A stretch of DNA of 64,000 nucleotides. It comes from Azoarcus sp. CIB (GTDB taxonomy: Bacteria; Pseudomonadota; Gammaproteobacteria; Burkholderiales; Rhodocyclaceae). The stretch covers positions 3,410,001 through 3,474,000 of the forward strand of contig NZ_CP011072.1 of NCBI RefSeq assembly GCF_001190925.1, in the 5' to 3' direction. Made by a program: the position numbers and the translations under genes. The notes beneath the pieces were generated by a model. It saw only the letters and a list, made by a program, of their open reading frames with translations. It was not told the DNA's origin and searched no databases. This document shows positions 9,054 through 17,623 of the stretch, in pieces. Every line of letters begins with the position of its first letter. Within the stretch, counting starts at the first letter, position 1.

Positions 9054-10721
9054 TCAACCTCCGATCATTTCAGTATTGGCAGCGCCGGGCGGCACCATCG
9101 GGTAAACGAATTCCTCGCGGCTGATCGAAGCATGGATCAAACACGGTCCGCGGCCTTGCAGCGCTTGCGCGAGCGTCGCACGCGGATTCGGCGAACTATC
9201 CAGATCCACTGCCGCAATGCCGAAGCCCTCGGCGATCTTCAGAAAATCGGGTTCGCCGCGATACTTCGACGCAAACACGCGCTTGCCGTAGAACAGGTTC
9301 TGCTGCTGGTACACCAGACCAAGCGAGTTGTTGTTCATCAGCACGATCTTGACGTTCAACCCCTCCTCGGCGAGCGTCGCAAGCTCCTGGATGTTCATCT
9401 TGAAGCTGCCGTCTCCGGTAAAGCACACCACGGTACGATCGGGTTCGGAAAGCGCGGCGCCGATCGCCGCCGGCACCCCGAACCCCATCGTCCCGAGGCC
9501 GCCCGAAGTAAGCCACTGGCGAGGCCTCCGGAACGGATACGCCTGGGCGACCCACATCTGGTGCTGCCCCACGTCGGTCGCGATGACGGCTTCGTCATCG
9601 AGCGCGGCGGCGACCGCATGCACGAGACCGTAGTGGGTGCGCGGATCGTCACGTCCCGGCATCACCATCGGAAAGCGTGACTTCAAGCTATCCACGTGTA
9701 ATAGCCAGCGCTTGCGCAGATTGTGCTTCACGCGCGGCAACAAGGCCTCCAGCACGGTCGCGACATCGCCGTTGATCGCAACGTGAGCAGCCTTGATCTT
9801 GTGCAGCTCGGCCGGATCGATATCGATATGGACGACCTGCGCATTGGGACAGAACTGCGCCGCCTTGCCGATCGCCCGATCGTCGAAGCGCGCGCCGACG
9901 CAGATCAACAGATCCGACTCCTCGAGAGTGAAGTTCGTGTAGCGCGCGGCGTGCATACCGAGCATGCCGATGGACAAGGGATGATCGACCGGCATCGTGC
10001 CCAGCGCCATCAGCGTCATCGTCGTCGGCAGTCCGGCCTGCTCCGCCAGCGTGACGGCCAGCCGCGAGGCCCCCGAATGCACGACGCCCCCACCCAGATA
10101 CAGCACCGGACGCTCCGCCTCGTCGATCATCTTCGCCGCCGACTCGATCGCGACCATGTCCAGCGCGGGCACCGGATCCGGCACGGCGAGGTCGGGGTAG
10201 GCCTCGAAACTCACCAGCTGATTCTGCACGTCCTTCGGAACGTCCACGAGAACCGGCCCGGGGCGACCAGACATCGCGATGCGGAACGCCTGCGGGATGA
10301 CCTCGAGCAGTTCCGCCGCGGAGCGGACTAGAAAGTTGTGCTTTGTGATCGGCACGGTCATGCCGTAGATATCGACTTCCTGGAACGCATCCGTGCCGAT
10401 CATCGACAGCGGCACCTGACCGGTGATCGCAACCATCGGGATCGAATCGAGTCGCGCATCGGCGATCGCCGTCACCAGATTCGTCGCGCCCGGACCGCTG
10501 GACGCGAAACACACTTCAGGGCGCCCGGACACCCGCGCCATACCTTGCGCCATAAAGCCCGCCCCCTGTTCGTGGCGAGCGAGGACATGGCGAATGATGT
10601 CGCTGCCCGACAAGGCATCGTACAGAGGCAGGATCGCCCCTCCGGGAATCCCTGCAATGGTACGAATACCCTGCCGTTCAAGCAGGCGCACGATCAACTC
10701 GGCGCCGGTCATCTGCATCAT
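9054..10721 (-). CDS. ilvB: Acetolactate synthase large (catalytic) subunit, IlvB type
   Basis: Thiamine-diphosphate enzyme condensing two pyruvates (or pyruvate and 2-oxobutyrate), the first common step to valine, leucine and isoleucine. It shows the catalytic glutamate in ARHEQGAGFMAQG, the FAD/quinone-like region with QVPLSMIGTDAFQEVD, and the ThDP motif GDGSFKMNIQELATL...NNN near the C-terminus. The wording ILPLYDAL and RHVLARHEQ resembles E. coli IlvB more than IlvI. The chosen ATG (555 residues) has AAGGAG 6 nt upstream; an ATG 30 nt earlier and a TTG 33 nt earlier lie almost on the attenuator terminator and have no ribosome site. Confidence 0.95.
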   Translation of the reverse strand: MMQMTGAELIVRLLERQGIRTIAGIPGGAILPLYDALSGSDIIRHVLARHEQGAGFMAQGMARVSGRPEVCFASSGPGATNLVTAIADARLDSIPMVAITGQVPLSMIGTDAFQEVDIYGMTVPITKHNFLVRSAAELLEVIPQAFRIAMSGRPGPVLVDVPKDVQNQLVSFEAYPDLAVPDPVPALDMVAIESAAKMIDEAERPVLYLGGGVVHSGASRLAVTLAEQAGLPTTMTLMALGTMPVDHPLSIGMLGMHAARYTNFTLEESDLLICVGARFDDRAIGKAAQFCPNAQVVHIDIDPAELHKIKAAHVAINGDVATVLEALLPRVKHNLRKRWLLHVDSLKSRFPMVMPGRDDPRTHYGLVHAVAAALDDEAVIATDVGQHQMWVAQAYPFRRPRQWLTSGGLGTMGFGVPAAIGAALSEPDRTVVCFTGDGSFKMNIQELATLAEEGLNVKIVLMNNNSLGLVYQQQNLFYGKRVFASKYRGEPDFLKIAEGFGIAAVDLDSSPNPRATLAQALQGRGPCLIHASISREEFVYPMVPPGAANTEMIGG

Positions 10722-10774
10722 CTTGCGCTCCTTCGGTTCAGTGTCGGGCATCAAAACCGGCGGCGCAAAAACAA

Positions 10775-10807
10775 AACCCCCGCCGGGCTTGCGCGCCGGC
10801 GGGGGTT
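10775..10807 (-). terminator. Attenuator terminator of ilvBN
   Basis: A perfect 12-bp stem (aacccccgccgg / ccggcgggggtt) with a 9-nt loop is followed on the minus strand by TTGTTTTT. It lies between the leader-peptide stop and ilvB and ends about 50 nt before the ilvB start codon. It is an intrinsic terminator in exactly the position expected for transcription attenuation. Confidence 0.9.
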
Positions 10808-10832
10808 GGAATCTGTTGCTTGCCTTGTGTCC

Positions 10833-10919
10833 TTACCCTCGAGACGCGTGATCGCCTACGCGTACTACTACGCGTACGGGCAGAACTACTACGACGAGGG
10901 CGCGAACCATACGGGTCAT
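10833..10919 (-). CDS. ivbL: ilvBN leader peptide, valine-rich (28 aa)
   Basis: A 28-codon frame opens MTRMVRALVVVV and continues LPVRVVVRVGDHASRG before TAA. Ten of 28 residues are valine and two are leucine, in two clusters, and seven of the ten valine codons are GTA, a codon expected to be rare in this high-GC genome. The valine/arginine codons lie inside a potential hairpin formed by two TACGCGTA copies (10857-10864 and 10869-10876). The layout and composition match E. coli IvbL. No strong ribosome site precedes the first ATG; the second ATG (three codons later) is an alternative. Function in valine-responsive attenuation of ilvBN is inferred from architecture. Confidence 0.85.
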   Translation of the reverse strand: MTRMVRALVVVVLPVRVVVRVGDHASRG

Positions 10920-10947
10920 CGGGACAACAACAAACAGTTAATGGACG

Positions 10948-10977
10948 AATCTAAACACAGGCACAAGCGAAACACAA
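10948..10977 (-). promoter_or_regulatory. Candidate sigma-70 promoter for the ilvBN leader
   Basis: On the minus strand TTGTGT (-35) and TAGATT (-10) are 18 nt apart, placing the start point about 20 nt before the leader-peptide ATG. Match to consensus is moderate. Confidence 0.4.
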
Positions 10978-16902: not shown

Positions 16903-16979
16903 TGGCGGAGTGGACGGGGCTCGAACCCGCGACCCCCGGCGTGACAGGCCGGTATTCTAACCAACTGAACTACCACTCC
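16903..16979 (-). tRNA. tRNA-Asp (GTC), copy 1
   Basis: 77 nt including encoded CCA. Acceptor GGAGTGG / CCACTCC with discriminator G, anticodon loop CTGTCAC (GTC), T-loop GGTTCGAGC. It is the last gene of the downstream Ala-Glu-Asp triplet. Confidence 0.97.
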
Positions 16980-17043
16980 GCGCTGACCAGTTGCCGACTT
17001 TACTTGCCGACTGCAATTCGTCTGCTCGACGCCTTGCTTGATC

Positions 17044-17119
17044 TGGCGTCCCCACGGGGATTCGAACCCCGGTTATCGCCGTGAAAGGGCGGTGTCCTAG
17101 GCCTCTAGACGATGGGGAC
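17044..17119 (-). tRNA. tRNA-Glu (TTC), copy 1
   Basis: 76 nt with encoded CCA; acceptor GTCCCCA / TGGGGAC, anticodon TTC in the loop CTTTCAC. Middle member of the downstream triplet. Confidence 0.97.
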
Positions 17120-17137
17120 AACGTCTTGTTGCTTCGT

Positions 17138-17213
<76 letters not shown>

Positions 17214-17226
17214 AACAGAGCTGCGC

Positions 17227-17255
17227 ATTCTAGCTTCTGGCGCTACCAACCGCAA
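17227..17255 (-). promoter_or_regulatory. Promoter of tRNA triplet copy 1
   Basis: On the minus strand TTGCGG (-35) and TAGAAT (-10) are exactly 17 nt apart, followed by a GC-rich discriminator (GCGC) about 14 nt before tRNA-Ala. GC-rich discriminators are typical of stringently controlled stable-RNA promoters. Confidence 0.65.
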
Positions 17256-17308
17256 GCACTTTACTACGGTTACTTATACTGCAAGCAGACTATCGTCTGC
17301 AGTGTTGT

Positions 17309-17385
17309 TGGCGGAGTGGACGGGGCTCGAACCCGCGACCCCCGGCGTGACAGGCCGGTATTCTAACCAACTGAACTACCACTCC
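17309..17385 (-). tRNA. tRNA-Asp (GTC), copy 2
   Basis: 77 nt with CCA; looks identical to copy 1. It is the last gene of the upstream triplet. Confidence 0.97.
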
Positions 17386-17456
17386 GCGCTGAGCTTTTGC
17401 CCGGCCTTACCGACCGGCTTGCGAGCCGCCATTATAACTCAACGCCTCGCTTTATC

Positions 17457-17532
17457 TGGCGTCCCCACGGGGATTCGAACCCCGGTTATCGCCGTGAAAG
17501 GGCGGTGTCCTAGGCCTCTAGACGATGGGGAC
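17457..17532 (-). tRNA. tRNA-Glu (TTC), copy 2
   Basis: 76 nt with CCA; looks identical to copy 1, anticodon TTC. Confidence 0.97.
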
Positions 17533-17547
17533 TTCAATACTTTCGAC

Positions 17548-17623
<76 letters not shown>

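Follow-up and report, generated by a model that had tools for sequence, protein, structure and literature searches.

An ivbL-like valine attenuator ahead of ilvBN in Azoarcus sp. CIB and its conservation in Rhodocyclaceae

The ilvBN locus and its leader region

The window analysed in this study is a 64,000-nucleotide stretch of Azoarcus sp. CIB DNA, in which the two genes for an acetohydroxyacid synthase (AHAS) lie on the minus strand. The large subunit gene ilvB (10721-9054, minus) was identified as AHAS-I type by profile NF006016 (1039.7 bits, cut-off 870). Its ATG at 10721, which is preceded by GAAGGAG, lies within an ORF opening with TTG at 10754. The small subunit of acetolactate synthase, of 104 aa, is encoded by ilvN (9051-8737, minus), which starts near the end of ilvB and matches profile NF006036 (162.1 bits, cut-off 128); aroC is the next gene past ilvN. 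A second AHAS large subunit in the same genome (L004; 43% identity) has no valine leader linked to a terminator. On the upstream side, a fadD-like gene (12655-10988, minus) ends 68 nt before the leader described below.

An ivbL-like leader peptide ORF of 28 aa, MTRMVRALVVVVLPVRVVVRVGDHASRG, was found at 10919-10833 (minus) by ORF reading and comparison. Ten of its 28 codons specify valine (7 GTA, 2 GTT and 1 GTC) and two leucine. The start codon is probably the first ATG, since at this position the nearest relatives (L088-L093) carry ATGACC, and they show CTG where the window has its second ATG; no obvious Shine-Dalgarno sequence was seen before the ORF. The 220-nt region has 9 valines in 14 codons, and 5,000 dinucleotide shuffles of it never gave more than 8 (three times). 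Against a background of 71 GTA among the 1281 valine codons of 38 chosen ORFs of the window, the probability of at least seven GTA among ten valine codons is 1.7e-7. The RNA fold of the leader region gave a z score of -5.05, with 0 of 200 shuffles equally stable.

Within the minimum free energy (MFE) fold, an apical hairpin is formed by two copies of TACGCGTA, with the 5' arm (10876-10869, minus) lying over Val/Arg codons as part of segment 1 and the 3' arm at 10864-10857 (minus). RNAalifold analysis of the pre-terminator part of 44 leaders returned the apical hairpin and one more short helix, with low support. The leader is followed, 25 nt past its stop codon and ahead of ilvB, by an intrinsic terminator (3:4; 10807-10766, minus), whose stem of 12 pairs, AACCCCCGCCGG / CCGGCGGGGGTT (10807-10796 / 10786-10775), encloses a loop of 9 and leads into a U-rich tail that extends to 10766. 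The distance from the terminator stem to the ilvB start is about 53 nt (50 in E. coli).

These elements had largely been anticipated by the original prediction. The 28-codon leader with its valine run and two leucines was borne out by the ORF reading, the shuffles and the codon probability, the 12-bp terminator followed by ilvB was found as claimed, and the two TACGCGTA copies thought able to pair over the Val/Arg codons do so in the MFE fold.

Pattern search and alignment also located a promoter-like site (10977-10948, minus), comprising TTGTGT (10977-10972), an 18-nt spacer and TAGATT (10953-10948), the last 28 nt from the leader ATG. The site was absent from the output of a consensus scan and matches the consensus at 7 of 12 positions. 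In the genus alignment TTG was present in 17 of 17 rows, and TAGATT or TAGAAT in 14 of 17. Among 111 leaders, 66 had TTG and xAxxxT at a spacing of 16-19 nt within the 80 nt upstream, compared with 22.8 expected from mononucleotide shuffles. These observations are only suggestive of a promoter upstream of the leader.

Conservation, antiterminator pairing and switching

AHAS-I ilvB was found in all 17 genomes of the genus and in 74 of 150 Rhodocyclaceae genomes. Samples of 369 genomes from the class and 398 from the phylum contained 12 and 10 genomes with the gene, respectively; all these counts include the window genome (11 of the 368 other class genomes). The 600 nt upstream of 116 AHAS-I ilvB genes, a set that includes near-identical pairs (e.g. 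L008/L132, L010/L168, L015/L017), were searched for a terminator no more than 40 nt past the stop codon of a frame with at least 4 (lax rule), 6 or 7 Val in 14 codons. Leader and terminator together were present in 110, 104 and 92 regions, respectively. As a control, 13 regions upstream of paralogous AHAS genes of the genus (42-43% identical) were treated in the same way, of which 1, 0 and 0 passed, and the terminator core was found in none of the 13. Under the lax leader rule alone, four of these paralog regions contain a frame (4-6 Val in 14 codons) whose end lies 369-373 nt upstream, and one of the four (L112) has a terminator-like hairpin as well. When the leader region of the window was shuffled, 44% of the resulting sequences had a frame with at least 4 Val in 14 codons, so that the weight of this comparison rests on the terminator and the strict counts.

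A loss in close relatives, named beforehand as one possible refutation, did not occur: leader and terminator were kept in 17 of 17 genus members, the poorest leader (L103) having 5 Val in 14 codons. Six of the 116 loci failed the lax test, four (L023, L024, L192 and L194) having no leader and two (L150 and L151) no terminator by the automatic rule. Inspected by eye, L150 has a hairpin that lacks a U tract.

Some individual loci deserve separate mention. In L151 (genome G369), inspection by eye revealed a hairpin and a degenerate, Val-poor leader with GTACGCGTA, which the automatic rule had missed. The ilvB genes of L192 and L194 are of AHAS-I type but lack a valine leader, and the ORF directly ahead of them looks rhodanese-like by eye; in genome G154 the leaderless L192 coexists with a leader-bearing copy (L189) on a separate contig. 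Outside the beta/gamma groups, a Desulfovibrionaceae MAG (L021) carries a 60%-identical ilvB, upstream of which lie a Val-rich leader ending in GNAS and the same terminator core.

Duplex search placed the antiterminator between the leader end with its stop region and the terminator 5' arm, with 12 pairs in total. Its 5' strand, segment 2 (CGCGTCTCGAGGGT; 10848-10835, minus), overlaps the final codons of the leader and the first base of its stop, and its 3' strand, segment 3 (10806-10792, minus), comprises the terminator 5' arm and the start of the loop. The pairing proposed originally, CGAGGGT with ACCCCCG, is correct as the 3' half; CGCGUC pairs with GGCGCG too, and the longer 12-pair duplex rules out the short pairing as the entire antiterminator. 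A second candidate, GUAGGC with GCCGGC, was dropped when the duplex search put the best pairing at the stop region.

Compensatory arms were observed in several loci: a terminator arm CCCUCCGG occurs with the partner CCGGAGGG in L019, L154, L156 and L158, CGGUGC with GCACCG in L147 and L162, and CCCUCCGGC with GCCGGAGGG in L173 and L174. A swap test was performed on 22 arm classes, one representative each, with the arms permuted 20,000 times. The native total was -501.6 kcal/mol, against a permutation mean of -446.5 kcal/mol (sd 12.3), and no permutation (0 of 20,000) was as low. Fifteen of the 22 classes were better than the mean of their swaps; the native arm came first for its leader in just 3, with ranks up to 18. 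Co-variation of the antiterminator (2:3) is therefore clear in sum, but not case by case. Antiterminator and terminator are mutually exclusive and the former co-varies, as expected of an attenuator of the ivbL type.

The same evidence bears on a simpler account, in which the hairpin is no more than the terminator of the fadD-like gene upstream and the valine-rich frame is there by coincidence. That gene lies on the same strand and ends close to the leader, as such an account would have it. Leader and terminator, however, accompany ilvB from one family to another and also in E. coli, which has a different gene upstream, the antiterminator co-varies with the terminator arm, and a promoter-like site lies between the fadD-like gene and the leader. 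An incidental fadD terminator was rejected on the conservation with ilvB and the antiterminator co-variation, and is very improbable.

Ribosome stalling was modelled in two ways. When RNA behind the ribosome was allowed to pair across it, stalls at the Val codons among codons 10-21 of the window leader left segment 2 paired with upstream RNA. When only the RNA downstream of the ribosome was folded, which in our judgement is the more realistic model, 10 of 10 Val stalls in the window kept at least 8 antiterminator pairs (12 to 10), and a ribosome at the last codons left 4 and 0. Across 111 leaders, this downstream-only model gave at least 8 antiterminator pairs at 884 of 944 Val-codon stalls, and at most 5 in 79 of the 111 leaders with the ribosome at the last codons; the outcome is not Val-specific, any stall at an earlier codon also leaving the antiterminator. 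Folded free of the ribosome, the window leader forms 0 antiterminator pairs and 69 of 111 leaders form at least 8, so that in this simple model 1:2 does not protect in general. Whole folds of three leaders favoured the terminator over the antiterminator at equilibrium, and the switch would thus need co-transcriptional kinetics.

With its sequence anatomy, its conservation, the likeness of its leader, antiterminator and terminator to those of ivbL, and the 2:3 co-variation directly supported, the ilvBN locus is, with high confidence, a ribosome-mediated transcription attenuator homologous to that of E. coli ivbL, for which we propose switching between 1:2, 2:3 and 3:4. We infer the transcription start, translation of the leader, the ribosome stall and the regulatory response, which may be pictured as follows. 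Transcription would probably start about 20 nt ahead of the leader ORF. With ample Val-tRNA, the ribosome would reach the stop codon and cover segment 2, so that the terminator (3:4) would form and transcription would end before ilvB. Without a ribosome, the window leader is predicted to fold on itself (1:2), which would make segment 2 unavailable too. When Val-tRNA is scarce, a ribosome stalled in the Val run would disrupt 1:2, and the freed segment 2 could pair with the terminator 5' arm (2:3), allowing RNA polymerase to read through into ilvBN.

Valine codon choice and tRNA isoacceptors

The bias towards GTA extends beyond the window. The 713 Val codons of 86 Rhodocyclaceae leaders comprise GTA 451, GTC 165, GTT 61 and GTG 36, and nine enterobacterial-type leaders use GTG 44 times, GTC 37 times and GTA twice, a separate count giving no GTA for them. 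A VRV..VG motif is carried by 57 leaders, and in the full-length ilvB genes available for this set GTA accounts for 20 and GTG for 1019 of 1624 Val codons.

It is possible, though we would not put it at even chances, that the GUA bias is purely a matter of RNA structure, the UACGC/GCGUA hairpin of 1:2, and that any Val codon would sense valine equally. In the motif-bearing leaders the Val of the 5' stem is GTA in 57 of 57 and that of the 3' stem in 54 of 57, and the Arg codon is CGC in 56 of 57. Ahead of the last Val the codon is NGC in 49 of 51 cases although the residue itself is variable (G, S or R in most), indicating that conservation acts here on the nucleotides and not on the amino acid, as the UACGC/GCGUA stem would need. 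This explanation does not readily extend to the loop, where 120 of 136 Val codons are GTA with no visible need for pairing, nor to E. coli, where GTG and GTC serve in the same switch; moreover, the stem pairs are nearly invariant, and the hairpin therefore offers no co-variation. The conserved stem accounts for part of the GTA bias, and the loop sites need another reason.

Such a reason might lie in the tRNA repertoire. The window genome has two genes for tRNA-Val(CAC), one for tRNA-Val(GAC) and a single one for tRNA-Val(UAC), as checked with ARAGORN for this genome only. Elsewhere in the window, at 16903-17623 (minus), two successive tRNA-Ala(GGC)-Glu(TTC)-Asp(GTC) clusters lie about 406 bp apart. 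For other genomes tRNA-Val genes were taken as pattern matches (80 of 98 genomes taken, 79 searched), and a one-mismatch search for tRNA-Val(CAC) was applied to just the 14 genomes lacking an exact match, six of which became CAC-positive; L151/G369 was excluded from the codon-tRNA table.

These counts bear on another reading of the real attenuator, one in which GUA has been selected because it reports the charging of tRNA-Val(UAC), with GUG served by a separate tRNA-Val(CAC). Consistent with it, GTG is scarce in the Rhodocyclaceae leaders, in contrast to their ilvB genes, and a tRNA-Val(CAC) match was found in 66 of 68 tested genomes of the family (61 exact, 5 with one mismatch). An exact match was found in none of the nine enterobacterial-type genomes, whose leaders use mainly GTG and GTC. 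Ten genomes belong to neither group; their leaders had a GTG share of 0-0.25 in the four with CAC and 0.27-0.80 in the six without (one-sided P 0.005), a comparison that spans few independent lineages, ignores G+C, includes three incomplete assemblies (58-82%) and counts G403 as CAC-positive after the one-mismatch search. On the other side, GTC is common in the family leaders too, and two of the GTA sites lie inside the RNA stem. By gene number against codon use in the window genome, tRNA-Val(GAC) has the lowest supply for demand, for which the selective-charging theory, as set out in PMC1183508, would favour GUC; the estimate is weak because gene number stands for tRNA amount and wobble is treated crudely. 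Taken together, we regard the tRNA-Val(UAC) reading as rather unlikely.

The rarity of GTA had been taken originally as a sign that the supply of one isoacceptor is sensed. As a proof this argument was dropped, since section 10 of PMC1183508, which treats selective charging, calls the rare-codon idea an oversimplification. Sensing of one isoacceptor thus does not follow from rarity, and both the two GTA sites in the RNA stem and the dosage estimate speak against it; some independent support comes from GTG scarcity tracking tRNA-Val(CAC). An evolutionary extension, that regulatory codons are re-chosen as tRNA repertoires change, such that where tRNA-Val(CAC) takes over GUG the leader GUG would be replaced by GUA, reading tRNA-Val(UAC) charging, is in our view unlikely. 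With about 110 homologous leaders that differ in Val codons and tRNA sets, the choice of regulatory codons is directly testable.

Comparison with known attenuators

The closest known system is the E. coli ivbL-ilvBN attenuator, reportedly described by Friden et al. in 1982. Both systems precede an AHAS-I operon and have a Val-rich leader with the core VVVVR.VVV.VG, a terminator core CCCCGCCGGCGC...GGCGGGG and about 50 nt between terminator and ilvB. The E. coli K-12 antiterminator, AUGCGCCGUAGGG with CCCCGCCGGCGC, involves the last codons and the stop region, as in the window. The leader ends in VVVVRVVVVVGNAP in E. coli and VVVVLPVRVVVRVG in the window, and the terminator arms are AAAACCCCGCCGG..CGGGCGGGGTTTT and AACCCCCGCCGG..CCGGCGGGGGTT, respectively. 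The recurrent leader ends NAP, RAS and RAP fit this arrangement, their codons GCG-CCG or GCG-TCG constituting one strand of the antiterminator. The two leaders differ in length (28 aa in the window, 32 aa in E. coli), in Val codons (5 GTG and 4 GTC in E. coli, compared with 7 GTA, 2 GTT and 1 GTC), in the apical UACGC/GCGUA hairpin of the window, and in their ends (ASRG in the window, NAP in E. coli). Judged from these listed sequences without a scored DNA alignment, the window leader region is homologous to the E. coli ivbL region. An Rfam scan of the window leader returned no family at or above the gathering score, and a scan of the E. coli K-12 ivbL region (L153, 2700-3300) likewise gave no match there at that score, the nearby istR being matched.

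The abstract of Vitreschak et al. 2004 is said to cover gamma- and alphaproteobacteria. A literature search by titles and the beginnings of abstracts, in which subscription papers were thinly covered, found no description of the attenuator for Rhodocyclaceae. The original prediction of ivbL-like valine attenuation in a betaproteobacterium is supported by the conservation, by the match to E. coli ivbL in terminator core and antiterminator, and by the co-variation. The classical ivbL switch is now placed in Rhodocyclaceae and scattered other lineages, most AHAS-I ilvB matches having the leader.

More distant systems can also be compared. The Corynebacterium ilvBNC attenuator, as described in PMC11857589 and PMC10272879, is alike in ilvB attenuation and a small upstream reading frame; it belongs to another phylum and another operon, and is likened here by description only. 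A passage of PMC6123439 citing Vitreschak et al. 2004 mentions putative leader peptides and terminators across various Gram-negative species, and the branched-chain amino acid attenuators noted there share their working principle with that of the window. Among these systems, the window attenuator is ordinary in mechanism, of the ivbL kind, and conserved.
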